Shown: positions 50,966 to 63,602 of the stretch, in pieces
Position numbering within the stretch: position 1 is the first letter of the stretch
Layout: each line of letters begins with the position of its first letter
From: Streptomyces canus
GTDB taxonomy: Bacteria > Actinomycetota > Actinomycetes > Streptomycetales > Streptomycetaceae
NCBI RefSeq assembly: GCF_030816965.1
Contig: NZ_JAUSYQ010000002.1
Span: forward strand, 6,128,001 to 6,192,000
Reading direction: 5' to 3'
Length of the DNA: 64,000 nt
Notes under the pieces: model-generated
What the model was told of the DNA's origin: nothing
Seen by the model: only the letters and a program-made list of their open reading frames with translations
Databases searched by the model: none
Made by a program: the position numbers and the translations under genes

Positions 50966-51481
50966 TCAGCCGACGAACTCGACGTCGGAGGTCAGCCAGC
51001 GGCCACCCCGGTGCACCAGGTCGAGCTGCAGCCGATAGGTACGGGTCTCGCCCTCGGGCGCGGCGGTGTTGGTCACCTTGCTGTCGGCGACCACGAGGAC
51101 GCGGGCCGAGTGCTCGTCGGACCGGACGATGCCCGCTTCGAGGACCTGGCCCTCGGAGACGGACTTGTTCTCGGCGACGAGCCTGGTCAACTGCCCGGTC
51201 TGCGCGGCGAACTGCTTCTTGAAGTCGCCGGTGGCGTCCTCGAGGACGTTCGCGCTGTCCCGGTCGTAGTGCCGGTAGTCGAGCGAGGTGAAGTTCAGCG
51301 CCGACTGGCGGCCCGCGGCCAGGATGTCCTGGCGCCGCTGCTCCGCCTCGCGTTGGTCGTAGCGCTCAACGCTCAGCCAGATCGTCAGGGCGATGGTGAG
51401 GACGGTCGCCACGACGAGCCCCACCGACCACGCCCTGCCCGTCAGGGCCCTGCTCATGCCATCGGTCCAACGAGCAGCCAT
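50966..51481 (-). CDS. Mce-associated membrane protein (first)
   Basis: 171 residues: short cytoplasmic N-terminus, one helix at about 17-36 (SVGLVVATVLTIALTIWLSV) and a MAM-type external domain (NFTSLDYRHYDRDSANVLED; LDLVHRGGRWLTSDVEFVG). The ATG at 51481 has AAGGAG upstream and lies 28 bases inside the end of mceF, so translation is coupled. Paralogous to the next gene. Confidence 0.85.
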   Translation of the reverse strand: MAARWTDGMSRALTGRAWSVGLVVATVLTIALTIWLSVERYDQREAEQRRQDILAAGRQSALNFTSLDYRHYDRDSANVLEDATGDFKKQFAAQTGQLTRLVAENKSVSEGQVLEAGIVRSDEHSARVLVVADSKVTNTAAPEGETRTYRLQLDLVHRGGRWLTSDVEFVG

Positions 51482-52731
51482 TGCCACGACTCCTTTCCGA
51501 ACACGGCCTGTTGGCCGCCCGTCGAGCCGATCTCGACGGGCCTTCCGTCCGGGCCGGTGGCAGTGCCGGTCTCCGGGTCGTATGGCGTGACGTACGCCGT
51601 CTGGTTCGCACCGCCAGAAGCGGCGGACGCGCCGGGGGCGTTCTGCGCGCCCCGCACCGACGTCTTGCTTCCGCGCGGGGCCGTGCAGCGCGCGTCGGTG
51701 TTCGCCCCGCGTGTGCTGGTGTCCGCGGGGTCGCGCTGTGTCGTCCCGTATCCCTGGGTGCACGGCGGCGGGTCGTCGGCGTTCACCACCAGGCCGAAGT
51801 GGGTGGTGCCGTCGCCCGGAACGACCGTGTAGCTGCCCGCGACCACTGCCGGGAAGGTGACCAGGGTCTGCTCCACGCCGGGCAGGTGCGCCTGTGTGAC
51901 CTGGCCGCCGCTGATGAGGTTGGCCAGCAGGACCGACAGCCGTGGTCCGGTGGACTTCAGCAGCGAGTTCACCTGTTGCGCGGCCGGCGTCGCGTTGCCG
52001 ATCAGCTTGTGCAGGTCCCCGTCGCTCGACTTCAGCTGCGCGGAGAGCGCCGCCAGATCGTGCGCGAACGACTTGATCGACGAGCCCTGGTCGGCCTGCG
52101 TCTTGAGGACCTTCCGCGAGTCCTCGATGAGTGAGATCGTCTGGGGCAGCGAGTCGGACGCGGACTCGACGAGCGCGTTGCCCGAGTCCACCAGCCGGCT
52201 CAGGTTCGGTCCGGTGCCGGAGAAGGCCTTGCCCAACTCGTCGACGGTGACCCGTAGATCGTCCTTGCCGACCGAGTTCACCAGCCGGTCCAGGCTGAGG
52301 ACCAGGTCCGTCGTGGGCAGCGGCACGCGGGTGCTGCCGCGGGGGATGGAGCTGCCGTCGAGCAGATACGGGCCGTGGGACGTACGCGGCTGCAGATCGA
52401 CGTACTGCTCGCCCACCGCCGAACGGTTCGCCACCACGGCGAGCGTGTCCGCCGGGATGTGCGGTGCGCCGTCCTTGATGTCGAGGGAGACCGAGACCCC
52501 GTCGGAGCCGGTCAGCCGCAGCGCGCCGACGCGGCCCACCGGCACCCCGCGGTAGGTGACCTCGGCGCCGGAATAGATGCCCCCGGAGTCGGCGAAGTCC
52601 GCCCGCACGGTGTAACCGTGGCCCAGGACGGCGTCCACCAGGCCGGTGTACTCGGCGCCGACGTACGACACCCCGACGGCGGTGACGACGGCGAAGGCGA
52701 GCAACTGGACTTTGACCGTACGTGTGATCAC
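51454..52731 (-). CDS. mceF: Mce protein, F position
   Basis: Sixth Mce subunit of a lipid/sterol importer. 425 residues; one N-terminal helix (about 6-26), the MCE/MlaD domain at about 37-115 (GYTVRADFADSGGIYSGAEV; GVPVGRVGALRL), a helical coiled region to about 300, then a low-complexity tail with NADDPPPCTQGYG and an Ala/Gly/Thr-rich end. The GTG at 52731 overlaps the mceE stop (GTGA). Confidence 0.9.
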   Translation of the reverse strand: MITRTVKVQLLAFAVVTAVGVSYVGAEYTGLVDAVLGHGYTVRADFADSGGIYSGAEVTYRGVPVGRVGALRLTGSDGVSVSLDIKDGAPHIPADTLAVVANRSAVGEQYVDLQPRTSHGPYLLDGSSIPRGSTRVPLPTTDLVLSLDRLVNSVGKDDLRVTVDELGKAFSGTGPNLSRLVDSGNALVESASDSLPQTISLIEDSRKVLKTQADQGSSIKSFAHDLAALSAQLKSSDGDLHKLIGNATPAAQQVNSLLKSTGPRLSVLLANLISGGQVTQAHLPGVEQTLVTFPAVVAGSYTVVPGDGTTHFGLVVNADDPPPCTQGYGTTQRDPADTSTRGANTDARCTAPRGSKTSVRGAQNAPGASAASGGANQTAYVTPYDPETGTATGPDGRPVEIGSTGGQQAVFGKESWQWLLVGPMA

Positions 52732-54044
52732 GGCTGAACCCCCTTCAGCATCAGCTCCGCGAGCGCGAGGTCGATCCCCTCGGGCAGCTCTCCCCGGGTG
52801 GTGTAGCTGCTGGTGCACACCGGCGGGCACAGCGGACCGCCGCCGCCCTGCGGGGCCGACGGGGCCGACGGAACCGAGGGGACCGAGGGGGACGGCACAC
52901 TCGGGACGCTGGGCAGCGCGGTGGGCGTCGGGACGGCCGGCAGGTCCGGAAGACCGGGTACGTCGGGGGCGTCGGGATCCTTGGAGTTGCCGTCGCCGGA
53001 CGTGCCGGACTCGCCCGCCAGGTTCCCGTAGAGGTCCGACAGATCGAGGTCGGCGGTGATGTCGAGGTTGACGTAGTCGCCCTTGACGGCGTCCACCGCG
53101 TTGCGCGGGAACGGGTAGGTGGTCAGCAGTTCAAGGGAGTTGGGCAGATCGTCGCCCGCCTTGTTCAACTGCTGCAGGATCGGCCGCAGTCGCCTGAGGT
53201 TCGCGACCGTGTCGTCGTGCGAGGCCGTGACCACCCTGGTGCCCGTCGTGCCCAGCTTCGCCAGGGCGGTGAGCATCTTCGTCAGATCGCGCCGCTGGTC
53301 GGCGAGGACCTTCAGGGCGGGCGGCATCGTGTCGACGGCCTCGGCGATCGTCTTCTTCTCCTTGCCGAGCCGCTCGGCGAGCGCGTCGACGGCCTTGAGA
53401 GCACGGACGATGTCCGCGCGCTGGTCGTCCAGCCCGCCGACGAACGTGTTCAGCTCCTTGAGCAGCGACCTGACCCGGTCCTCCCGGCCGTTCAGGGCCT
53501 TGTTCAGCTCCACGGTGATCGTCTTGAGCTGGGCCACCCCGCCGCCGTTGAGCAGTGCGGACAGTGCGGACAGCACCTCCTCGATCTCCGGGTTGCGGCC
53601 GCTGCGGGACAGCGGGATGCGGTCGCCGTCGCGGAGCCGGCCCACGGGAGCGGTGCCGGGCGGGCTGGAGAGCGCCACGTACTTCTCGCCGAGCACGCTG
53701 GTCTGGCGCAGCTCGGCGACCGCGTTGGCGGGCAGCTTCACCGAGTCGGCGACCCGCAGCCGTACGCGCGCGTGCCAGCCGTTCAGCCGCACCTTCTCGA
53801 CCGCGCCCACGGTGACGTTGTTCACCTTCACCGCCGACTGCGGTACCAGGTCGAGTACGTCGCGGAACTCGACGGTGACGTGGTAGGCGTGGCCGTCCGC
53901 GGCGGCACCGCCGGGCAGTTGGACGTCGTACCAGCCGTTGAACTCGCAGCCGGTCAGCAGCAGCGAGCCGACGGCCGCCCAGGCGACCGCCCCGCCCTTG
54001 CGCAGGGCGCTCACCCGTCGTGCGCTCACGCGTCGTGCGTTCAT
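52728..54044 (-). CDS. mceE: Mce lipoprotein, E position
   Basis: Fifth Mce subunit and, as usual for position E, a lipoprotein: AWAAVGSLLLTGC gives lipidation at about Cys34. 438 residues. MCE domain about 55-135 (HVTVEFRDVLDLVPQSAVKV), helical region to about 330, then a Pro/Ser/Val repeat (VPSVPSPSVPSVPSAPSAP) before a short C-terminal piece. ATG at 54044 overlaps the mceD stop (ATGA). The N-terminus contains a small tandem repeat (ARRVSARRVSA). Confidence 0.9.
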   Translation of the reverse strand: MNARRVSARRVSALRKGGAVAWAAVGSLLLTGCEFNGWYDVQLPGGAAADGHAYHVTVEFRDVLDLVPQSAVKVNNVTVGAVEKVRLNGWHARVRLRVADSVKLPANAVAELRQTSVLGEKYVALSSPPGTAPVGRLRDGDRIPLSRSGRNPEIEEVLSALSALLNGGGVAQLKTITVELNKALNGREDRVRSLLKELNTFVGGLDDQRADIVRALKAVDALAERLGKEKKTIAEAVDTMPPALKVLADQRRDLTKMLTALAKLGTTGTRVVTASHDDTVANLRRLRPILQQLNKAGDDLPNSLELLTTYPFPRNAVDAVKGDYVNLDITADLDLSDLYGNLAGESGTSGDGNSKDPDAPDVPGLPDLPAVPTPTALPSVPSVPSPSVPSVPSAPSAPQGGGGPLCPPVCTSSYTTRGELPEGIDLALAELMLKGVQP

Positions 54045-55165
54045 GCGGCGGCCCCCAGAATTCCGCCGAGGGTGCGGTCGGTGGTGCCGGTCACCGCGGA
54101 GCCCTGAGGCACCTTCGGCAGGGAGTCGAAGAGCTCCTTGAGTTCCTTGCAGTCGGGGTTCTTGCCGCCTTCGTCGCCGGTCGTCCTCAGTACGGAGCAC
54201 AGCAGCGCGGCCGGATCCTGCGCCTGCCGGGCGTTGTTGCGGGTGTCGAGGGTGCCCGCGGACGGGTTGTAGGCGTTGTTCAGGTTCGACAGACCCGTGG
54301 GCGCGACTCTCAACAGCTCCTCCAGCGCGGCCCGTTGGGTGACGAGCACCTTGGTCACCTTGCTCAGACCCTTCACGTTCGAGGTCAGCGACTTCTTGTT
54401 CTCCTTCACGAAGTGGGACACGTCGCCGAGCGCCGCCGCCAGGTTCCGCAGCGCCGCCGCGAGGTCCTCGCGCTCACCCGCGAGCTGCCCGGCGACGTCG
54501 GCGAGGCTGGTGTTGAACGACCGCACGCTCGTGTCGTCGGCGGCCAGCGCCGCAGTGAACACCTGCAGGTTCCGGACCGTGCCGAAGAGGTCCGTGCGGC
54601 CGTCGGACAGCGTGGTGACCGCCTGCGAGAGGTCCTCGACCGTCTGGTTGAGGTTCTCGCCCTGGCCGTGGAGGTTGTCCGCGCTCACCCCGAGCAGACG
54701 TGACAGCGAGCCGTTCTTGTTGGCGCCCTGGGGGCCGAGCGCCTCGGCCGTCGTGTGCAGACTGTCGAAGACGCGGTCCAGTTCGACCGGTACGGCCGTG
54801 CGCTGCTCGGGGATGACGGCGCCGTCGCGCATCGCCGGACCACCGCGGTAGACCGGCAGCAGCTGTACGTAACGGTCGCTGACCACCGAGGAGTTGATGA
54901 TCGCGGCCTTGGCGTCGGCCGGGACCTTGCGGCCCGCGTCGTACTCCAGCTCCACGCGCACCCGGTCGCCCTGCGGCGTGATCGCCTTGACCTCGCCGAT
55001 CCGGACGCCGAGGACGCGGACGTCCGAGCCGGGGTAGATGCCGACGGTGCGGGGGAAGTACGCGGTGACGCGCACGGACTCGGAGCGCGGCCACAGCACG
55101 TAGGTGAGGGCGGCGACCAGGGCGAGTGCGGTGAGCAGGGCCAGGCGCCTCTTCGGGTTCCTCAC
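54041..55165 (-). CDS. mceD: Mce protein, D position
   Basis: Fourth Mce subunit, 374 residues. Helix at about 6-24, MCE domain about 30-110 (VTAYFPRTVGIYPGSDVRVL; SVVSDRYVQLLPVY), helical coiled region after that, with a Cys-containing end (LLCSVLRTTGDEGGKNPDC). Coupled on both sides by ATGA overlaps. Confidence 0.92.
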   Translation of the reverse strand: MRNPKRRLALLTALALVAALTYVLWPRSESVRVTAYFPRTVGIYPGSDVRVLGVRIGEVKAITPQGDRVRVELEYDAGRKVPADAKAAIINSSVVSDRYVQLLPVYRGGPAMRDGAVIPEQRTAVPVELDRVFDSLHTTAEALGPQGANKNGSLSRLLGVSADNLHGQGENLNQTVEDLSQAVTTLSDGRTDLFGTVRNLQVFTAALAADDTSVRSFNTSLADVAGQLAGEREDLAAALRNLAAALGDVSHFVKENKKSLTSNVKGLSKVTKVLVTQRAALEELLRVAPTGLSNLNNAYNPSAGTLDTRNNARQAQDPAALLCSVLRTTGDEGGKNPDCKELKELFDSLPKVPQGSAVTGTTDRTLGGILGAAA

Positions 55166-56325
55166 TGCGAGCCTCCTGTCCGCGGTGCCACCGGGGCGGC
55201 GACCAGGTTCTGGACATAGCTGTCGAACCAGCGGCCGTTGCCGAGGGCGTTGGTGAAGACCCGTACGTAGGGCGCGAGCAGCTCGACGCTCCGGTCCAGG
55301 CTGGACTCATTGCGTTCGAGCATCCGCACCACGCGGTTCAGGCCCTTGAGCGCGGGTCCGATCTCCTTCTCGTTGTCGTCGACGAGGCCGGAGAGCTCGA
55401 TGCCGAGCGTCGCGGAGCTCTTCAGCAGCTTGTGGATCGCCTCGCGCCGCCTGCTGATCTCCTGGAACAGCTTGTCGCCGTCCTTGACCAGCGCGGAGAA
55501 GTCCTTGGAGTGGTCGGCCAGTACGCCCGTGACGCCGTTCGCGTGGTCCAGGAGTTCGCTCAGCGCCTTGTCGCGCGAGGCCACGGTCCGGGAGATCTTC
55601 GACAGGCCCTCGATGGACGCCCTCACCTCGGCGGGCGAGTCCTGGAAGGTGGTGGAGATGGTGTCCAGGGCCTTCGCGAGCCGGTCGGTGTCGACGGCCT
55701 CCGTCGTCGTGGTGAGATCGCTGAACGCCTGTACGACGTCGTACGCCGGAACCGTCCGCTTCAGCGGTATCTCGCTGCCGGCCGTCAGCTGCCCCGGTCC
55801 CTTGGGGTGCAGCGCGAGGTACTTCGCGCCGAGGATGGTCTTGATCCGGATCGATGCGCCGGTCTCGGTGCCGAACTCCGGGTCGCCCTTGATCTTGAAG
55901 GTGATCTTGACGTGGTCACCGTCCAGATCGACGTCCTCGACCTTGCCGACCTTGACCCCGGCGATCCGCACCTCGTCGCCGGGCTTGAGGCCGCCCGCCT
56001 CCGAGAAGGCCGCGCTGTACGTCTCGCCGTCACCGATCAGCGGCAGGCTGTCGGCGTTGAACGCGGCCACGGCCAGCAGCCCGAGGACGGTGAGGCCGAC
56101 CGCTCCGATCACCACCGGGTTCCGCTCGCGGAACGGGGTCAGGCGCGGGCGGCGTATCCGTATGCGGGGCAGCCTGGGGGGCACGACGCGGACTCTCACC
56201 AGGGGTTCCGGGCGGCGGGGGCGGGGTGCCCGGCGCGGCAGCAGCCGTATGTTCGGGAGCTTGGGCGGCTCGACGCGGACCTTGACCAACGGCTCCGGGC
56301 GGCGCTTGCGGGAACGCTTCATCAT
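55162..56325 (-). CDS. mceC: Mce protein, C position, with repeated basic N-terminal tail
   Basis: Third Mce subunit, 387 residues. Unusually the first 70 or so residues are a basic, Pro-rich cytoplasmic tail containing a twofold repeat: EPLVKVRVEPPKLPNIR and EPLVRVRVVPPRLPRIR. The helix follows at about 72-92, the MCE domain at about 100-175 (YSAAFSEAGGLKPGDEVRIA), then a coiled region. ATG at 56325 overlaps the mceB stop (ATGA). Standard Mce proteins have only a short N-terminus. Confidence 0.9.
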   Translation of the reverse strand: MMKRSRKRRPEPLVKVRVEPPKLPNIRLLPRRAPRPRRPEPLVRVRVVPPRLPRIRIRRPRLTPFRERNPVVIGAVGLTVLGLLAVAAFNADSLPLIGDGETYSAAFSEAGGLKPGDEVRIAGVKVGKVEDVDLDGDHVKITFKIKGDPEFGTETGASIRIKTILGAKYLALHPKGPGQLTAGSEIPLKRTVPAYDVVQAFSDLTTTTEAVDTDRLAKALDTISTTFQDSPAEVRASIEGLSKISRTVASRDKALSELLDHANGVTGVLADHSKDFSALVKDGDKLFQEISRRREAIHKLLKSSATLGIELSGLVDDNEKEIGPALKGLNRVVRMLERNESSLDRSVELLAPYVRVFTNALGNGRWFDSYVQNLVAAPVAPRTGGSQ

Positions 56326-57359
56326 GCGCCGCACCTCGCCCTGGCCACGTGCAGCTCCGGTGTCAGCACCTGCTGTGTCTTCGGCAGCACGATCCGGCCG
56401 TCGAAGTCGCAGAGGTAGAAGTTGAACCACGAGCCGTAGGACGCGGTCCCCGTCAGCTCGTTCAGCTTGTTCGGCAGCCGCTTCAGGACGCCCTCCACGG
56501 TCTTCTCGTTCTTGTTGAGCGTTCCGGTCAGTTCGGTCAGCTCGGCGATGTCGTCCTTCAACGGTGGACGCGCGTCCGTGAGCAGCCCCGAGGTGGCGTC
56601 CGTCAGGTCGCCGATGCTCACCAGCGACTGCCCGATGGGCTTGCGGTCGGCGGACAGGCCCGAGATCAGCCGGCGCAACTGCGTGAGCAGCCCGGAGAAG
56701 CGGGTGCCGCGCTTGTCCAGCGTCCCCAGCACGGTGTTGAGGTTGTCGACCACCGAGCCGATCAGCTGGTCCCGGCCTGCCAGGGTCGTGGTGAGCGAAG
56801 CCGTGTGCGCCAGCAGGCTGTTCACGGTGCCGCCCTCGCCCTGGAGGGTCCGGATGATCTCGGTGGCCAGCTGGTTGACGTCCTGCGGGCTGAGCGCGGC
56901 GAACAGTGGCTTGAAGCCGTTCAGCAGTGCGTTGAGGTCCAGCGCGGGCTGCGTGCGCGACAGCGGGATCGTGGCGCCGGGCTTCAGCCGGGTGCCGTCT
57001 CCCGCGCCCTCGGTCAGGGCGACATAGCGCTGTCCGACCAGGTTCCGGTAGCGGACGACCGCGCCGGTGCTGCTGAGCAGCGGACGGTCCGCGCTGACCG
57101 TGAAGGTGACCTGCGCCAGCGTCCGGTCCTTGATGCTGATGCCCTCGACCTCGCCGACGCGTACCCCGGCCACCCGGATGTCGTCGCCCTTCTCCAGGCC
57201 GGTGACATCGCTGAACACCGCGCGGTACGTGTGCTCGGGGGTGAGGGAGATGTTGACGATGGTGGCGGCGAGCAGGGCCGTCGCCAGGATCGTCACCAGG
57301 GCGAAGAGGCTGAACTTGATCAGCGGTGCGGCGGTCTGTCGGGCTCCTGTGTTGCTCAT
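56322..57359 (-). CDS. mceB: Mce protein, B position
   Basis: Second Mce subunit, 345 residues. Helix about 13-33, MCE domain about 38-118 (YRAVFSDVTGLEKGDDIRVA; NLVGQRYVALTEG), helical stretch to about 300, and the C-terminal YGSWFNFYLCDFDGRI typical of Mce proteins. ATG at 57359 overlaps the mceA stop (ATGA). Confidence 0.93.
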   Translation of the reverse strand: MSNTGARQTAAPLIKFSLFALVTILATALLAATIVNISLTPEHTYRAVFSDVTGLEKGDDIRVAGVRVGEVEGISIKDRTLAQVTFTVSADRPLLSSTGAVVRYRNLVGQRYVALTEGAGDGTRLKPGATIPLSRTQPALDLNALLNGFKPLFAALSPQDVNQLATEIIRTLQGEGGTVNSLLAHTASLTTTLAGRDQLIGSVVDNLNTVLGTLDKRGTRFSGLLTQLRRLISGLSADRKPIGQSLVSIGDLTDATSGLLTDARPPLKDDIAELTELTGTLNKNEKTVEGVLKRLPNKLNELTGTASYGSWFNFYLCDFDGRIVLPKTQQVLTPELHVARARCGA

Positions 57360-58600
57360 GCGACGCTCACCGCCGTCCCGCGCGCCATCGGCCCGAACAG
57401 CAGGGTCGCCACCGGCGGCACCTGGTCGGCGGGCACGCCCATGACGGGTGCCACGAGTGAGCCGACGGCGCGCTGCTCGGCCCGGGTGGCGGACACGCCG
57501 GCCGGGCCGACCGGACTCCCCTTCTTCGAACCGTCGTTGAGGTGGGCCCCGGGTGCGGGCACCGGCGGACGGGGCAGGTCGCGGCAGTTGGGCCCGGACC
57601 GTTCGCCGTAGCGGGGGTATTCACCGGGTTCGTACGCCCCCTGCTGGCGGACGACCTCGAGCGTGATGTGCATCTTGCCGCCGCGGAACGCCTGCTCGGA
57701 GGCCTGCTCCTCACGGACCAGGCCGGCGAGGAGACAGGGGTACTCGGGTGAGTAACGGGCGAAGAGGTCGAGCGTGGGGCGGGAGATCCGGCCCAGGGTG
57801 ATCAGCCGGTCGCCGTTCGCGTCGAGGAAGGCGTCCGCGGTGCCCGCGGCGGTGGCCGTCGTGGTGAGCGCGGACGCGAGCCGGTCCCGCTGCTCGACGA
57901 TGGTGCGGCTGGTGGTGACGGTGTTGCGCAGGATCTTCATCAGGTCGGGAGCCGCGTCGCCGTACACCTCGGCGACGTCGGCCAGGCGTGCGAAGTCCTC
58001 GGTGAGGGACGGCAGGTGGGGGTTGAGGCGGTGCAGATAGTCCTCCACGCGCGTGAGGTTGTCGCCGATCCGGTCGCCGCGCCCTTCGAGGGCGGTGGCG
58101 AACGCGGAGAGCGTGGCGTCGAGCTTGCCGGGCTGCACGGTCCGCAGCAGCGGCAGCAGGTCGTTCATCAGCTGCTGGAGCTCGATGCCGACACGGGTGC
58201 GGTCCTGGGTGATGACGTCCCCGGCGCGGATGGGCCTCGCCGAGGACCGCGCGGGCGCGATCAGATCGACGTACTTCTCGCCGAACAGCGTCTTGGGCAG
58301 CAGGCGTGCGTGCACGTCGGACGGGATGTGCGCGACGTACTCCGGCTTCAGCGCGATGTCGAGCGTCGCCTTCGTCCCGTCGGCGTGCACCGCGCGCACC
58401 TCGCCGACCAGCAGCCCGCGCAGTTTGACGTCGGCCCGCGGATCGAGCTGGTTGCCGAGGCTGTCGGCCTCCAGCCTGATCCGTACGGCCGAGGTGAACA
58501 CCTGCTGGTACACGGCGACGGACAGGGACAGCAGCAGGCCGAGCACGGCGAGGAACACCAGGCCGTACAACCGCAGTCTCAGCACTCTCATACGGCTCAC
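57356..58600 (-). CDS. mceA: Mce protein, A position
   Basis: First Mce subunit, 414 residues from the GTG at 58600 that overlaps the yrbEB stop (GTGA); an ATG three codons later is possible. Helix about 10-31, MCE domain about 35-120 (VRIRLEADSLGNQLDPRADV; LFGEKYVDLIAP), helical region to about 300, then CLLAGLVREEQASEQAFRGG and a Pro/Gly tail. Because of the base insertion in yrbEB, the first part of that gene reads in the same frame as mceA without a stop, giving a continuous 685-codon frame. Confidence 0.92.
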   Translation of the reverse strand: MSRMRVLRLRLYGLVFLAVLGLLLSLSVAVYQQVFTSAVRIRLEADSLGNQLDPRADVKLRGLLVGEVRAVHADGTKATLDIALKPEYVAHIPSDVHARLLPKTLFGEKYVDLIAPARSSARPIRAGDVITQDRTRVGIELQQLMNDLLPLLRTVQPGKLDATLSAFATALEGRGDRIGDNLTRVEDYLHRLNPHLPSLTEDFARLADVAEVYGDAAPDLMKILRNTVTTSRTIVEQRDRLASALTTTATAAGTADAFLDANGDRLITLGRISRPTLDLFARYSPEYPCLLAGLVREEQASEQAFRGGKMHITLEVVRQQGAYEPGEYPRYGERSGPNCRDLPRPPVPAPGAHLNDGSKKGSPVGPAGVSATRAEQRAVGSLVAPVMGVPADQVPPVATLLFGPMARGTAVSVA

Positions 58601-59413
58601 CCCGCAATCCGCACGGTCGTGTTGGCGCCCCAGATCGCGAGCGACAGGAAGAAGTCCAGGACGTTGATCGCGACGATCGAGGTGCGTACGGCGCGGCCCA
58701 CGGCGACGCCGACGCCCGCCGGGCCGCCGCTCGCGTAGTAGCCGTAGAAGCAGTGCACCAGGATGATCAGGACGGCGAAGACGAGCACCTTGCCGAAGGA
58801 CCACAGCACGTCGACCGGCGGCAGGTACTGCTGGAAGTAGTGGTCGTAGGTGCCCGCGGACTGCCCGTAGTAGCCGGTGGTGATGGTGCGGGCGGCGAAG
58901 TACGAGGACAGCAGCCCGACCACGTACAGCGGGATCACCGCGACGAACCCGGCGATCATCCGGGTGGTCACCAGGAACGGCAGCGAGGGGACGCCCATTG
59001 ACTTCGAGCGCGTCGGTCTCCTCGCTGATCCGCATCGCGCCGAGCTGCGCCGTGAACCCGGCGCCGACCGTGGCGGACAGGGCGAGCCCGGCCACCAGCG
59101 GGGCGATCTCCCGGGTGTTGAAGTACGCCGAGAGGAAGGCCACGAAATTGGACGTGCCGAGCTGGTTGAGCGCGGCGTACCCCTGCAGGCCCACCTCCGT
59201 GCCGGTGAAGAACGACAGGAAGGCGATGACGCCGACCGTTCCCCCCACGACGGCGAGCGCGCCACGGCCGAAGCTCACCTCGGCGAGCAGCCGCAGGATC
59301 TCCTTCTTGTAGCGGCGCAGGGTGCGGCCGGTCCAGGCGAGCGAGCGGCCGTAGAACGAGAGTTGGGCGCCGAGTTCTTCGAGGGAGCGCAGGGGGCGCT
59401 GGAGTGGTCGCAT
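58597..59413 (-). pseudogene. yrbEB: YrbE-type permease, B position, with a one-base frameshift
   Basis: Second membrane permease of the Mce importer (MlaE family). From ATG 59413 the frame reads normally to RISEETDALEV (59000). There an extra A on this strand (T at 58998 or 58999 on the plus strand) shifts the frame; the protein resumes in the next frame with MGVPSLPFLVTTRMIAGFVA to the stop at 58597. Removing that base gives an uninterrupted 271-residue protein of normal YrbE length with the family motif EE-x-DALEVMG-x-P. All flanking genes are intact, so either this is a sequencing or assembly error, a recent loss, or a recoding site. An AGAGGGG ribosome site precedes the start; yrbEA ends three bases upstream. 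Confidence 0.88.
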
Positions 59414-59416
59414 CGG

Positions 59417-60187
59417 CTAACCCCTCTGCGGGGCGACTTGGAAGTACACCGCGGTCATCACGAAGTTCGTCACGAACAGCAACATGAAGGTGATCACCAC
59501 CGACTGGTTCACGGCGTCGCCCACGCCCTTCGGCCCGCCCTTCGCCGTAAGTCCCTTGTACGAGGCGACGATCGCCGCGATCGCACCGAACACCAGCGCC
59601 TTGATCTCGGCCGCCCACAGGTCGGACAGCTGGGCCAGCGTGGTGAAGGAGGCGAGATAGGCGCCCGGTGTGCCGTTCTGCAGTACGACGTTGAAGAAGT
59701 AGCCGCCAGCGACACCGACGACGGACACCAGCCCGTTGAGCAGCACCGCCACCACCATCGACGCCAGCACGCGCGGGACGACCAGCCGGTGAATGGGGTC
59801 GATGCCCAGCACCTGCATCGCGTCGATCTCCTCGCGGATCTTCCGCGCCCCGAGGTCCGCGCAGATGGCCGTGCCGCCGGCGCCCGCGATCAGCAGCGCG
59901 GTGACGATCGGCGATGCCTCCCGCAGCACCGCGAGGACCGAGGCGGCCCCGGAGAACGACTGGGCGCCGAGCTGCCGGGTCAGACTGCCGATCTGCAGCG
60001 CGATGACCGCGCCGAAGGGGATGGACACCAGGGCCGTCGGCAGGATGGTGACGCTCGCGACGAACCAGGCCTGCTGGATGAACTCCCTCGCCTGGAAGGG
60101 CCGTCGGGGCACGGTCCGGACGACGTCCAGCGCCATCGCAAAGAGGTGCCCCGATTGCCGGAGCGCCCCGGTCGGTGACAGGCTCAT
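59417..60187 (-). CDS. yrbEA: YrbE-type permease, A position
   Basis: First permease of the importer, 256 residues with about five helices and the MlaE-family motif KIREEIDAMQVLGIDPIHRL (near 137-156), preceded by AGAGGTAICADLGA. ATG at 60187 overlaps the stop of the ATPase gene (ATGA); a longer open frame upstream is not used. Confidence 0.94.
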   Translation of the reverse strand: MSLSPTGALRQSGHLFAMALDVVRTVPRRPFQAREFIQQAWFVASVTILPTALVSIPFGAVIALQIGSLTRQLGAQSFSGAASVLAVLREASPIVTALLIAGAGGTAICADLGARKIREEIDAMQVLGIDPIHRLVVPRVLASMVVAVLLNGLVSVVGVAGGYFFNVVLQNGTPGAYLASFTTLAQLSDLWAAEIKALVFGAIAAIVASYKGLTAKGGPKGVGDAVNQSVVITFMLLFVTNFVMTAVYFQVAPQRG

Positions 60188-61128
60188 GCGTCCGCCACCT
60201 CCTTCCGGTGCAGCTCGGCCTCGCGTCTCGCGATCGCCTCCCATCGGGGCGGGCGGGTGATGCCCGGGCCCGGCAACAGGCGGGGCGTCAGAGCCTGATT
60301 GCCGGGAGTCTTCGGGTGCGCTCCGTCGCCGAGCTGGGCCAGCTCCTGCTCGACCTGGGCGGCGTCCTTCTCCTCCGCCATGCCGATCGGGCCCTGCATC
60401 CGGCCGTTCAGGAACTGCCGTACGACCGGCTCGTCGCTGGTCAGCAGCTTCTCGCGGGGCCCGAACATGACCAGCTCGCGGCGGAACAACAGCCCGATGT
60501 TGTCCGGCACCTGCCGGGCCGAGGCGATGTCGTGCGTGACGATCAGGAACGTCGCGTTGATCTGCGCGTTGAGGTCGACGATGAGCTGGTTGAGGTACGC
60601 GACGCGCACCGGGTCGAGGCCCGAGTCCGGCTCGTCGAACAGAATGATCTCCGGGTCGAGCACCAGCGCCCGCGCCAGCCCGGCCCGCTTGCGCATTCCA
60701 CCGGAGATCTCGCCGGGCAGCTTCCCTTCGGACCCGATCAGCCCGACCATGTCCATCTTCTCGAGCACGATGCGCCGGATCTGGCTCTCGGACTTGCGGG
60801 TGTGCTCGCGCAGCGGGAAGGCGATGTTGTCGTACAGGTTCATCGAGCCGAACAGCGCGCCGTCCTGGAACAGCACGCCGAAGAGCTTCCGCACTTCGTA
60901 GAGCTCGTGCTCGCGCAGCTTGGTCACGTCCCGGCCCGCGACTTTCACGCTGCCGCGCTCCGGCTTCAGCAGTCCGACGAGCGTCTTGAGGAACACCGAC
61001 TTGCCCGTACCCGAGGGGCCGAGCATGACCGAGACCTCCCCGGCGGGCAGCGTCAGCGAGACGTCCTGCCAGATGACCTGGTGACCGAAGGACTTCGTCA
61101 GCCCTTCCACACAGATCTCGACACCCAT
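60184..61128 (-). CDS. mkl: ABC-transporter ATPase for the Mce importer (Mkl/MceG type)
   Basis: Energises the YrbE-Mce importer. 314 residues. Walker A GPSGTGKS at 37-44, Q-loop near LFQDG (about 90), signature ISGGMRKR (about 143-150), Walker B IILFDEPDSGLDP (about 163-175) and the switch histidine in IVTHD. A C-terminal extension of about 70 residues after the ATPase core is typical of MceG proteins. ATG at 61128 is chosen over GTG 61137 because GAAGG lies nine bases upstream of the ATG. In mycobacteria mceG is unlinked; here it heads the operon, as in streptomycetes. Confidence 0.93.
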   Translation of the reverse strand: MGVEICVEGLTKSFGHQVIWQDVSLTLPAGEVSVMLGPSGTGKSVFLKTLVGLLKPERGSVKVAGRDVTKLREHELYEVRKLFGVLFQDGALFGSMNLYDNIAFPLREHTRKSESQIRRIVLEKMDMVGLIGSEGKLPGEISGGMRKRAGLARALVLDPEIILFDEPDSGLDPVRVAYLNQLIVDLNAQINATFLIVTHDIASARQVPDNIGLLFRRELVMFGPREKLLTSDEPVVRQFLNGRMQGPIGMAEEKDAAQVEQELAQLGDGAHPKTPGNQALTPRLLPGPGITRPPRWEAIARREAELHRKEVADA

Positions 61129-61163
61129 CCGGTCCACCCTTCAGCCATGGAGCAGCTCTGACA

Positions 61164-61216
61164 TCTGCTCTACGGGGAGGGGCGGGGTGTCCGTCGCGAC
61201 GGACACGGATTTTTTT
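61164..61216 (-). promoter_or_regulatory. Predicted promoter of the mce operon, copy 1 of a shared motif
   Basis: Bases 61164-61197 match 63564-63597 at 30 of 34 positions. On the minus strand the conserved parts are GCGACGGAC and, 14 bases on, CGTAGAGCAGA: spacing close to that of ECF-sigma promoters. The copy lies 35 bases before the ATPase start, the same distance as copy 2 from its gene. A run of seven A (minus strand, 61216-61210) just upstream could act as an UP element. Probably read by the ECF sigma factor encoded immediately upstream. Confidence 0.65.
61188..61205. promoter_or_regulatory. 18-bp perfect palindrome in the mce promoter
   Basis: TGTCCGTCG|CGACGGACA, perfectly symmetrical, covers the predicted -35 element. 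In copy 2 of the motif one base is missing and only TCCGT...ACGGA remains. It may be the operator of a dimeric repressor that acts on the mce operon only. Confidence 0.5.
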
Positions 61217-61307
61217 CCGGGGTCTTGCGGCGGGGTTTCCGTGAGGTCGACAGCGGTGTCTTTCCCGGCGGTGCCACTGGTTCTACGGCGGCGCTCTTGG
61301 CGCGGTC

Positions 61308-62393
61308 CTACGGCAGCGGGGTCGGCGTCGGTACGCCGACCGGGGCGGAGGACGTGGCGGGAGCCTCAGGGAGGGCCGGTAGCGTCGTCGGGATCGCGGA
61401 CGCGGCCGGCAGATCGGGGAGGTGGGGGAGGTCGGACGCGTTCGGCAGGTCGGACACGCCGGGAACATCGGGAACGGCGGGAACGTCGGGGACGGACGGC
61501 ACCGCTGTCAGTGAGGCGTCCGGCAGCGGTGGCACCGACAGTGGCAGCAGCGACCGGTCGTGATCGCCGGGCGGCACGGTCGGCGTACCTTCCTGAGACG
61601 TCGAGGCGGCCGACAGATCACGGGCGTTCGGGGTGGCTGCCCGGCCGACGCCGTCGGGCCCGACGGTCCGCGTGGTCGCCTGGGACATACGGGACACCGA
61701 GGGACGGGGAGTGCCCTGCCCGTCTCTGCCGTCCCCGTCGTGGACGTACGGCAACACGAACCCCGCGACCACCAGGGTCGCGGCCGTCGAGGTCACCACC
61801 ACAGCCTGCGCGTGTCCGCCCGCGCGCAGCTTCCCGCGCCCCCACAGGAACAGGGCGACGCCCAGCGTTCCGGCCAGCGAGGTACGCAGCGTGCGCCGGG
61901 CCCGGGCGAGCAGCGACTCGACGGTCCGATAGCTGAGCCCCATGCGCACGGCGACCTGGCCGACGTCGAGGTCCTCGGACTTCAGCCGGAGCGCTTCGGC
62001 CTGGCGCGCGGGTAGTTCCCCGCTGCGCACGGCCAGCCACTTGGCCTCGGCCCGGTCGCACACCGCCTCCTCGACGGGCACCGGGCCCGGCGCGACGAGC
62101 GTGGGGCTGCTGCGTACCTCGGCCTCGCGGTTGACCTGGCGGTACCGGTCGACGCACAGCCGCATGGTCACGGTCGTCAGCCAGGCGCCGAGGCGCTCGT
62201 CGTCCAGGTCGGGGCGCTCCGCGGCGCGCAGCATGGCCTCGTGCACCGCGTCCTCGGCGTCCTCAGGGCTCATCGACCTGCGCCGGGCCACCTTGAGCAG
62301 GTGCTCGCGGTGGCTCCACATGCGCTGCCACCGGTCGTGGGCCGCCTGTATCTCCGCAGGCATGTCCGGCATGTCAGGCATGTCCATCGCCAT
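61308..62393 (-). CDS. ECF-type sigma factor with a membrane-spanning C-terminal extension
   Basis: 361 residues. Sigma region 2 about 20-85 (SPEDAEDAVHEAMLRAAERP; LTTVTMRLCVDRYRQVNREA), region 4 about 127-170 (LPARQAEALRLKSEDLDVGQ; SYRTVESLLARARRTLR). This is followed by hydrophobic segments at about 172-186 and 196-217, and then about 145 residues predicted outside the cell, rich in Pro/Val/Asp/Ser repeats (VPDVPAVPDVPGVSDLP). No separate anti-sigma gene is adjacent, so the extension may tether or sense. The N-terminus has a threefold DMP repeat. GAAGGGG precedes ATG 62393. It follows the lytic transglycosylase gene by 54 bases and precedes the mce operon. Confidence 0.85.
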   Translation of the reverse strand: MAMDMPDMPDMPAEIQAAHDRWQRMWSHREHLLKVARRRSMSPEDAEDAVHEAMLRAAERPDLDDERLGAWLTTVTMRLCVDRYRQVNREAEVRSSPTLVAPGPVPVEEAVCDRAEAKWLAVRSGELPARQAEALRLKSEDLDVGQVAVRMGLSYRTVESLLARARRTLRTSLAGTLGVALFLWGRGKLRAGGHAQAVVVTSTAATLVVAGFVLPYVHDGDGRDGQGTPRPSVSRMSQATTRTVGPDGVGRAATPNARDLSAASTSQEGTPTVPPGDHDRSLLPLSVPPLPDASLTAVPSVPDVPAVPDVPGVSDLPNASDLPHLPDLPAASAIPTTLPALPEAPATSSAPVGVPTPTPLP

Positions 62394-62447
62394 GAGGGCC
62401 CCTTCGCGCTCATCCGCCGGTCTCGTGCTGCCCGGCGGATGGCGACA

Positions 62448-63527
62448 TTACCGCCCAGTATCCGCGGTTGTGGAGGGGGTAGAGGCCATCGAGTCGACAC
62501 CGTTGCCGCCCAGCGGAGCGCCGCTGGGCAGCAGGTCGTCGCCGGGCAGTTCGATGTCCGTGCCGGGCGCGGGGAGTTGGGGTTCCCTCGTCTCCGTGGC
62601 CCCGGCTGATGGACGGGACGTGCCGGGGGTCGGCGAGCCAGGTGCCGACGGGGTCCGGGACGGCGAGGCGCTGGGACGGGGGGACGGCGACGGCTTCGGC
62701 GTGGGTTTCGGCACAGGTTTCGGCTGCGACGGCTCGGAGCGCCTCGAACCCGTCGCGGAGCTGTCCGGCACCACCCGGTGCCCTTCCAGGAAGTAGGCGT
62801 ACCAGGCTCTGACCGTGCGGAGATACGCCTGCGAGTGGTTGTAGCCGAGGACCGCCCGGTCCAACCCGGCCGGGTCGGAGAGGTCCCGCCCGCCCGCGCA
62901 CAGATAGCGCCCGGCGGCGAGTGCCGCGTCGAAGACGTTGCCCGGGTCGGCCCGCCCGTCGCCGTTGCCGTCCATGCCCCAGCGGGCCCAGGTCGACGGG
63001 ATGAACTGCATCGGTCCGACCGCCCGGTCGTAGGCCGGGTCCCCGTCGTACGCGCCGCCGTCGGTGTCCCGTACGACGGCGAAGGCGCCGCCGTCCAGCC
63101 GCGGCCCGAGGATCGGCGCCACGGTCGTCCCGTCCGCCGTCACCCGACCGCCCCGCGCCTGCCCGGACTCCACCTGGCCGATCGCGGCCAGCAACTGCCA
63201 GCGCAGCCGGCAGCCGGGAGCGGTGCGCGCGAGCTCCGCCTCGGCGCGCCGGTAGGCGGCGAACACACTCGCCGGGAGCGCGGCGCCCGCCCCCGCCGCC
63301 CCACGCACAGATGCCCCACCCTTGCGCTCCCGCGCCCGCAGCGGCGGGAGTGCGGTGCGGTACGGGGTGTCGCCCGACACGCTCGGCCCGTGCTCGACGG
63401 GTGCCTCCCGCTGGGGTACGGAGGCCCGTGCCGGGACCGCCCCCGGCGCCTGTGACGCGGTCAGCGCCGCCATGGCCGCCACCGCGATCGCCGCCCCCCT
63501 GGCGCCTCTGACCCTGTGCCCTGCCAT
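62448..63527 (-). CDS. Secreted lytic transglycosylase (MltB-like)
   Basis: Cleaves peptidoglycan glycan strands. 359 residues. Signal peptide about 1-35. The catalytic glutamate is in LLAAIGQVESGQA (near residue 117); AVGPMQFIPSTWARWGMDGN and LAAGRYLCAGG are typical of the SLT_2/MltB group, with a calcium-binding-like loop DGNGDGRADPGN. A Pro/Ser/Lys-rich tail of about 110 residues follows (PKPVPKPTPKPSPSP), suggesting wall insertion. First gene of the unit with the ECF sigma factor; ggaggga upstream of ATG. Confidence 0.92.
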   Translation of the reverse strand: MAGHRVRGARGAAIAVAAMAALTASQAPGAVPARASVPQREAPVEHGPSVSGDTPYRTALPPLRARERKGGASVRGAAGAGAALPASVFAAYRRAEAELARTAPGCRLRWQLLAAIGQVESGQARGGRVTADGTTVAPILGPRLDGGAFAVVRDTDGGAYDGDPAYDRAVGPMQFIPSTWARWGMDGNGDGRADPGNVFDAALAAGRYLCAGGRDLSDPAGLDRAVLGYNHSQAYLRTVRAWYAYFLEGHRVVPDSSATGSRRSEPSQPKPVPKPTPKPSPSPRPSASPSRTPSAPGSPTPGTSRPSAGATETREPQLPAPGTDIELPGDDLLPSGAPLGGNGVDSMASTPSTTADTGR

Positions 63528-63563
63528 GTCGCGCTCCCTCCCTGTGGGTTGATGTCGTCTGCT

Positions 63564-63602
63564 TCTGCTCTACGGGGCAGGGCGGCGCGTCCGTCGCACG
63601 GA
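63564..63602 (-). promoter_or_regulatory. Predicted promoter of the transglycosylase-sigma operon, copy 2 of the shared motif
   Basis: Same motif as at 61164 (30/34 identity), 36 bases before the transglycosylase start. The CGTAGAGCAGA block is unchanged and the GACGGAC block is conserved; the central palindrome is broken by a one-base deletion. If read by the sigma factor encoded in this operon it would be autoregulatory. Confidence 0.65.

Follow-up and report, generated by a model that had tools for sequence, protein, structure and literature searches.

Two nearly identical intergenic sequences in Streptomyces canus, one ahead of a lytic transglycosylase (LT) gene that is followed by the gene for an extracytoplasmic function (ECF) sigma factor and the other ahead of the ATPase gene of an mce lipid importer, raise the question of whether both operons are served by the sigma factor encoded between them. 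The window analyzed here is the whole stretch of 64,000 nucleotides at positions 6128001-6192000 of one contig (NZ_JAUSYQ010000002.1) of a 10.66 Mb genome, and the coordinates below are those of the window. Sequence comparison indicates that the two copies of the element are very probably promoters read by this sigma factor. Along the minus strand run, in this order, copy 2, transglycosylase, ECF sigma factor, copy 1, mce ATPase, YrbE A, an open reading frame (ORF) combining part of yrbEB with mceA, and five more Mce ORFs; the features central to the question are as follows.

63566..63597, minus strand: element copy 2, GCGACGGAC-N14-CGTAGAGCA, promoter-like, upstream of the transglycosylase-sigma operon
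62448..63527, minus strand: predicted MltB-like lytic transglycosylase (SLT_2), 359 aa, with a Pro/Ser-rich C-terminal part (Pfam SLT_2, 5.9e-7)
61308..62393, minus strand: ECF sigma factor, 361 aa (Pfam Sigma70_r2 and r4_2, hydropathy, AF2 model)
61210..61216, minus strand: A-tract (T-run on the plus strand), UP-element-like, 12 bases upstream of copy 1
61166..61197, minus strand: element copy 1, GCGACGGAC-N14-CGTAGAGCA, promoter-like, upstream of the mce ATPase
60184..61128, minus strand: mce-linked ABC ATPase (Pfam ABC_tran, orthologs)

A Repeated Two-Block Element

A preliminary description of this DNA held that the two intergenic regions resemble each other beyond chance, that the copies lie at nearly equal distances upstream of two minus-strand genes and that each contains two conserved blocks about 14 bases apart, and all three observations have been borne out. 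The best ungapped 34-base match between the intergenic region of the mce ATPase and that of the transglycosylase is identical at 30 positions; shuffling one region 2000 times with dinucleotides preserved gave at most 25, and 1976 random window pairs of equal lengths at most 26. Copy 1 stops 35 bases short of the ATPase start codon (ATG at 61128) and copy 2 stops 36 short of that of the transglycosylase (ATG at 63527), and the blocks of the common element, GCGACGGAC-N14-CGTAGAGCA, are kept in relatives. A genome search for the two-block motif, proposed in the same description, returned copies 1 and 2 as the sole close matches in 10.66 Mb (25 fixed positions, up to three mismatches); with 18 fixed positions and up to two mismatches, three extra matches appeared, all with two mismatches, and a reversed control pattern also gave three. 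As far as can be read from the DNA, the regulon in this genome thus comprises two promoters, since close sites occur just twice. In the region of copy 1 (61187-61216), a palindrome is followed by a T-run on the plus strand; by eye, it is absent in most relatives and present in locus L064.

Conservation and Co-Occurrence With the Sigma Factor

A comparison of orthologous upstream regions, likewise proposed at the outset, was based on 72 loci found via the transglycosylase protein, 68 of which are from Streptomyces. The sigma gene is present in 55 of these, 54 of which have the order LT-sigma-ATPase-YrbE, the exception (L090) ending inside the sigma match. In the 250 bases preceding the mce ATPase, the best site shows no mismatch in 50 of 54 testable loci and one mismatch in the remaining 4, as compared with 6-8 mismatches in a control stretch of equal length within the ATPase gene. 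Upstream of the transglycosylase, where LT loci offering under 350 bases of upstream sequence, or matched only from beyond residue 30, were omitted from the count, the 50 sigma-linked loci comprise 35 with an exact site, 9 with one mismatch, 5 with two and one (L062) with 7, placing the element at 54/54 mce ATPase and 49/50 sigma-linked transglycosylase loci. Ten LT loci lacking a sigma match were also tested, yielding six exact sites, one site with one mismatch and three with 5-8; in the seven site-bearing cases the sequence stops at the LT match or at most about 130 bases from it (contig end), and the three site-less loci (L091, L095, and L096) hold LT relatives of 50-61% identity. The upstream flank of copy 2 outside the two blocks is not conserved in a profile whose rows were selected for exact CGTAGAGCA, so that the 100% values in this block arise by construction; the site count by mismatches carries no such selection.

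The two kinds of site differ in their surroundings. A run of at least five A within 30 nucleotides upstream of the element accompanies all 54 mce sites and none of 59 LT sites, while inspection by eye detects it at 4/4 sites of the paralog A group and at one of seven sites preceding a BNR-repeat gene (both described below), three more of the latter having four A; at the mce promoter this run would fit an UP element. In 41 of the 54 loci, an inverted repeat, GAGCAG-N-CTGCTC (61150-61170, minus strand), overlaps the -10-like block at the mce promoter and continues beyond it. In locus L102 (1966-7367), the LT match is split by approximately 3.8 kb of other sequence, and the sigma gene and both CGTAGAGCA blocks are kept.

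Conservation of the blocks in related strains, on which the preliminary description had made its proposal depend, extends to whole genomes. In a set of 61 genomes (the own genome, 36 from the genus, 15 from the order, and 9 from the class), strong sigma matches (E below 1e-50) are confined to the genus. Among 150 Streptomyces genomes, a sigma ortholog (E below 1e-90) occurs in 27, and a looser pattern, GCGACG-N17-CGTAGAGC, is found in all 27 of these and in 4 of the 123 others (Fisher p 7e-26, which is not a true probability because the genomes are related). A reversed control pattern reaches 12/150 genomes, and a few chance matches of the looser pattern are thus to be expected. The mce ATPases of these genomes fall into two classes, class A (28 at 83-100% identity) and class B (45 at 67-72%), and the holders of class A are precisely the 27 sigma genomes and one further genome, G123. 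Two genomes (G006 and G153) possess both classes, with class A accompanied by its site. The class B mce operons lack the element; among the 43 class-B-only genomes, G101 and G112 contain a match, on another contig or 1.7 Mb away.

Paralogous Sigma Factors and Additional Sites

Paralogs of the sigma factor provide a comparison in which the neighboring genes differ. In four of the 150 genomes (G009, G030, G109, and G121), paralogous sigmas of 49-52% identity, here termed group A, are each followed by a variant site, GCGAC(G/A)CA-N15-CGTAGAGC, with the same spacing; relative to the ortholog element, the downstream block is the same and the upstream block is altered (GCGACGCAA versus GCGACGGAC). 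Across 295 genomes the variant site occurs in six, in five of them beside a paralogous sigma, and the reversed control in three. The next gene at three group A loci encodes a protein of 491-492 aa, with a PepSY domain in the L183 copy. In the proteins, the consensus of the sigma4 recognition helix changes from SYRTVES (ortholog) to SYRAVQS (paralog A), and the region 2 stretch LTTVTMRLCVDR is kept in both, which matches the altered upstream and the unaltered downstream block; the combination of the same downstream block and spacing with a changed upstream block is as expected if the sigma factor itself reads the DNA. More distant paralogs (group B, 43-47% identity) are present in five genomes, and here region 2 differs too.

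The element also appears beyond the cassette. Searching 295 genomes with at most one mismatch (reversed control: 19 matches in 18 genomes) led to 12 extra-site regions: seven lie before a BNR-repeat gene, one (G274) before an LT remnant, and four (two in G034, one each in G308 and G113) are without a common gene and unexplained. Some of the one-mismatch matches in several genomes have almost the same sequence, GCGACGGACGGCGTGGACATCTTCGTCGAGCA, in common and possibly represent coding DNA. The seven BNR regions (L135-L141; G141, G167, G171, G192, G235, G257, and G316) have an exact site preceding the gene of a BNR-repeat protein of about 605 aa, which looks secreted (the Pfam run covered the L138 copy only), and a small predicted lipoprotein gene follows in six of the seven. 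Two genomes have this site 11 kb beyond the mce site, and in G141 the distance is 6.7 Mb; the sigma factor is present in all seven. These sites were first picked up through the motif search; a motif-independent protein search of the 150 genomes, the own genome included, found the BNR gene in three (G141, G167, and G171), all with the sigma factor and the exact site, with no match in the own genome. The G274 region (L145), in which an exact element is followed by a transglycosylase remnant of 49 residues and no sigma was found at 1e-20, is apparently a decayed cassette.

Architecture of the Sigma Factor

Assignment to the sigma family is supported by Pfam (Sigma70_r2, 1.1e-11; r4_2, 3.4e-9) and by TIGR02937 (59.8 bits, cut-off 42.9). 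The conserved portion consists of sigma2 and sigma4 only, as defines ECF (sigma70 group 4) proteins, and the bipartite motif common to own operon and target that characterizes such factors is evident from comparison alone. Beyond sigma4 the chain continues with a link of about 20 residues, one predicted membrane helix (approximately 194-217) and then a tail some 143 residues long, with 20% proline in the window protein. In sigmas of at least 300 aa, hydropathy over a 19-residue window after residue 150 exceeds 1.6 in 54 of 55 and is 1.58 in the remaining one. The AlphaFold2 model (mean pLDDT 58.8) is confident for sigma2 and fair for sigma4, and its tail is disordered.

Streptomyces coelicolor alone has 65 sigma factors (PMC5826349), and one of the closest described likenesses is its ECF52 protein SCO4117, an actinobacterial ECF sigma that similarly carries a C-terminal membrane segment and a proline-rich extension, and for which positive autoregulation was proposed, as it is here (PMC5826349). 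ECF52 proteins additionally contain a zinc finger and a carbohydrate-binding domain, whereas no zinc finger after sigma4 (no Pfam match, and about 20 residues to the helix) and no C-terminal carbohydrate-binding domain (no Pfam match, and a tail predicted to be disordered) were found here; the protein is thus not an ECF52 sigma as this source describes the group. The SCO4117 motif, CSGYN-17-SRHA at 29 promoters, is likewise unlike the present element, of which the own genome holds two close sites (PMC5826349). ECF48, ECF53 and IutY (ECF243) resemble the present protein in combining sigma factor and membrane anchor in one chain, and differ from it with respect to its link of about 20 residues between sigma4 and helix, the lack of a detected zinc finger, and the predicted disorder of its tail (PMC8999054). 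According to the same source, IutY is freed by proteolysis, and proteolytic regulation has been proposed for ECF48, ECF52, and ECF53 (PMC8999054).

Proposed Mechanism and Alternative Explanations

In the mechanism that we favor, GCGACGGAC would be a -35-like block recognized by sigma4 and CGTAGAGCA, separated from it by 14 bases, a -10-like block recognized by sigma2. Direct binding, transcription start sites and autoregulation by the sigma factor are what we infer from conservation, spacing, co-occurrence and the matched change at the paralogs. From copy 2 the sigma factor would positively control its own operon with the transglycosylase, from copy 1 it would drive the mce lipid importer, and in some species it would also drive the secreted-looking BNR-repeat protein. 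The C-terminal helix probably anchors the protein in the membrane, leaving the proline-rich tail outside, and an envelope signal might lead, via regulated proteolysis, to release of the protein, as its architecture and the relatives described in PMC8999054 suggest. The three-part regulon of sigma factor, transglycosylase, and importer put forward in the preliminary description is thereby supported by conservation, co-occurrence and the paralog site, with the amendments that one permease frame of the importer is broken in this assembly and that the sigma gene possibly has a separate promoter as well. A bolder version, which we regard as doubtful, sees a one-chain envelope sensor: a tethered sigma without anti-sigma domain or partner, whose tail would probe the wall remodeled by the co-transcribed transglycosylase and whose release would turn on the lipid importer. 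If true, such a sensor would couple wall turnover to lipid uptake through a regulon of two or three promoters, and the paralog would illustrate duplication of the switch by alteration of the -35 reading head alone.

Bipartite blocks at fixed spacing can also constitute a dimer site, and the element might accordingly be an operator for a separate DNA-binding regulator of both operons, with the sigma gene merely a third co-regulated gene; copy 1 indeed lies within a palindrome, as does its counterpart in L064. Judged from the element and the paralog loci, we consider this improbable, as the two blocks are neither repeats nor inverted repeats of each other, the palindrome is missing by eye from most relatives, and an identical -10-like block with equal spacing accompanies a paralogous sigma whose neighbors differ. 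Less probable still is a promoter for some other sigma factor, whether housekeeping or another ECF, the conservation of which would reflect cassette inheritance only. Streptomyces genomes do encode many ECF sigmas and the cassette order is nearly constant (54/55 loci), but the looser pattern is present in 27/27 sigma holders as opposed to 4/123 others, the blocks are unlike the TTGACA/TANNNT promoter consensus, and a sigma in wide use should have numerous sites, whereas the own genome has only two close ones. A third alternative concerns the sigma gene alone and is compatible with the favored explanation for the mce and transglycosylase sites: most sigma expression may start from a dedicated promoter where the transglycosylase gene ends, with copy 2 driving the transglycosylase and autoregulation being minor. 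To this we assign somewhat less than an even chance, the relevant features being the following.

62445..62479, minus strand: promoter-like conserved block, CCCCTCCACAAC ... GGTAATGT, at the 3' end of the transglycosylase gene (56-row alignment)
62412..62440, minus strand: predicted hairpin in the transglycosylase-sigma gap, without support from the alignment fold

Over the final 30 bases of the LT gene, 56 alignment rows anchored on GTAAYST share a block ending in GGTAATGT with hardly any variation, and within CCCCTCCACAAC ... GGTAATGT five third codon positions are invariant and two others variable, so this block may be a separate sigma promoter; moreover, at the four group A paralog loci the sole site found sits behind the sigma gene. 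Conversely, the conservation may instead reflect the transglycosylase C-terminus, the intergenic hairpin lacks support from the alignment fold, and read-through from copy 2 is still likely because the gap between the two genes is just 54 bases. The earlier claim that sigma would be transcribed from copy 2 is qualified in that the gene may also use a promoter of its own. The hairpin was separately considered as a regulator and rejected: among 52 folded gaps, 22 of which were listed, it is predicted in many, yet was not recovered by an alignment fold of 40 sequences (covariation term -0.15).

Several observations weigh against assigning the element to the linked sigma. Because the cassette genes are inherited together in related genomes, co-occurrence is not independent evidence, and only the BNR-repeat target and the paralog, both small in number, break this joint inheritance. 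The looser pattern is found in four genomes without a sigma ortholog: G101, G112, and G165 have a single match each, and G123 has an exact element before a class A ATPase, the contig of which starts with a sigma-tail-like stretch (43%, 89 residues, low complexity), no sigma being detected in it at 1e-20. The transglycosylase site of L062 has both blocks intact and a spacer one base longer, and five of the 12 extra-site regions, those outside the BNR group, have no shared gene. An AAC core in the -35 block, a common trait of ECF promoters though not a strict criterion, is missing from both GCGACGGAC here and GCGACGCAA at the paralog. The ortholog and paralog A sigmas differ at many further residues, and in the five group B genomes no site was found by pattern, with alignments displaying conserved stretches and no similar block pair. 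Lastly, the predicted membrane topology of the sigma factor is derived from hydropathy, the structural model being of low confidence outside sigma2 and sigma4.

The Transglycosylase and the mce Importer

The first gene of the sigma operon is predicted to encode an MltB-like (SLT_2) wall-cutting enzyme. Its SLT_2 match scores 29.4 bits against a cut-off of 24.3 and covers only positions 155-200 of the 292-position profile, the NCBIfam MltB models remain below cut-off, and the match to solved SltB3 structures is weak (E 0.002).

Downstream of the mce ATPase, the importer genes of the window are arranged as follows.

59417..60244, minus strand: YrbE permease A (MlaE; Pfam MlaE 1.1e-69)
57356..59413, minus strand: single ORF comprising the first half of yrbEB and mceA; yrbEB frame interrupted relative to three relatives
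56322..57359, minus strand: Mce protein (Pfam)
55162..56430, minus strand: Mce protein (Pfam)
54041..55165, minus strand: Mce protein (Pfam)
52728..54200, minus strand: Mce protein (Pfam)
51454..52830, minus strand: Mce protein (Pfam)

The importer had been described as complete, which does not hold for this assembly. A full set would comprise an ATPase, two intact permeases, and six Mce proteins; Mce (MlaD) domains are indeed found in six ORFs of the window, but the frame of the second permease, yrbEB, is broken near 58990, such that the MlaE profile is matched at 5-93 of 212 only and the yrbEB/mceA ORF aligns to two separate frames in L033, L034, and L062. Either a genuine change or an error in the assembly may account for the interruption.

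The arrangement resembles that of the mce6 class (SCO2422/SAV5902), in which an Mkl-type ATPase directly precedes the yrbE and mce genes (PMC1810536); for the operons in Streptomyces, the available text of that source mentions neither a promoter nor a sigma factor, whereas a sigma gene is linked here. As SCO2423 is listed as a secreted protein (PMC3087709), S. coelicolor may be arranged differently. Mycobacterial mce expression is likewise tied to dedicated regulators, and mce1 is described as repressed by a FadR-like regulator (PMC1810536). In M. abscessus, deletion of the ECF sigma SigH alters mce expression, which is raised on SigH loss (PMC13340314), whereas the linked sigma here appears to be activating.

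A literature search, mostly confined to papers accessible without subscription, found no named activator of Streptomyces mce importers and no description of the element or of a sigma factor for these operons; a linked sigma with a near-private promoter would offer a directly testable answer as to how they are activated. Moreover, the recognition helix and the -35-like block change in a matched way between ortholog and paralog, which would make the pair a natural experiment in how ECF sigmas select promoters, and the paired sigmas and promoters might serve as an orthogonal expression part for Streptomyces.

At five loci of distant sigma paralogs (L187-L191), the sigma gene sits behind a small gene, the product of which holds QEISDADLD.VSGG and looks like a peptide precursor.

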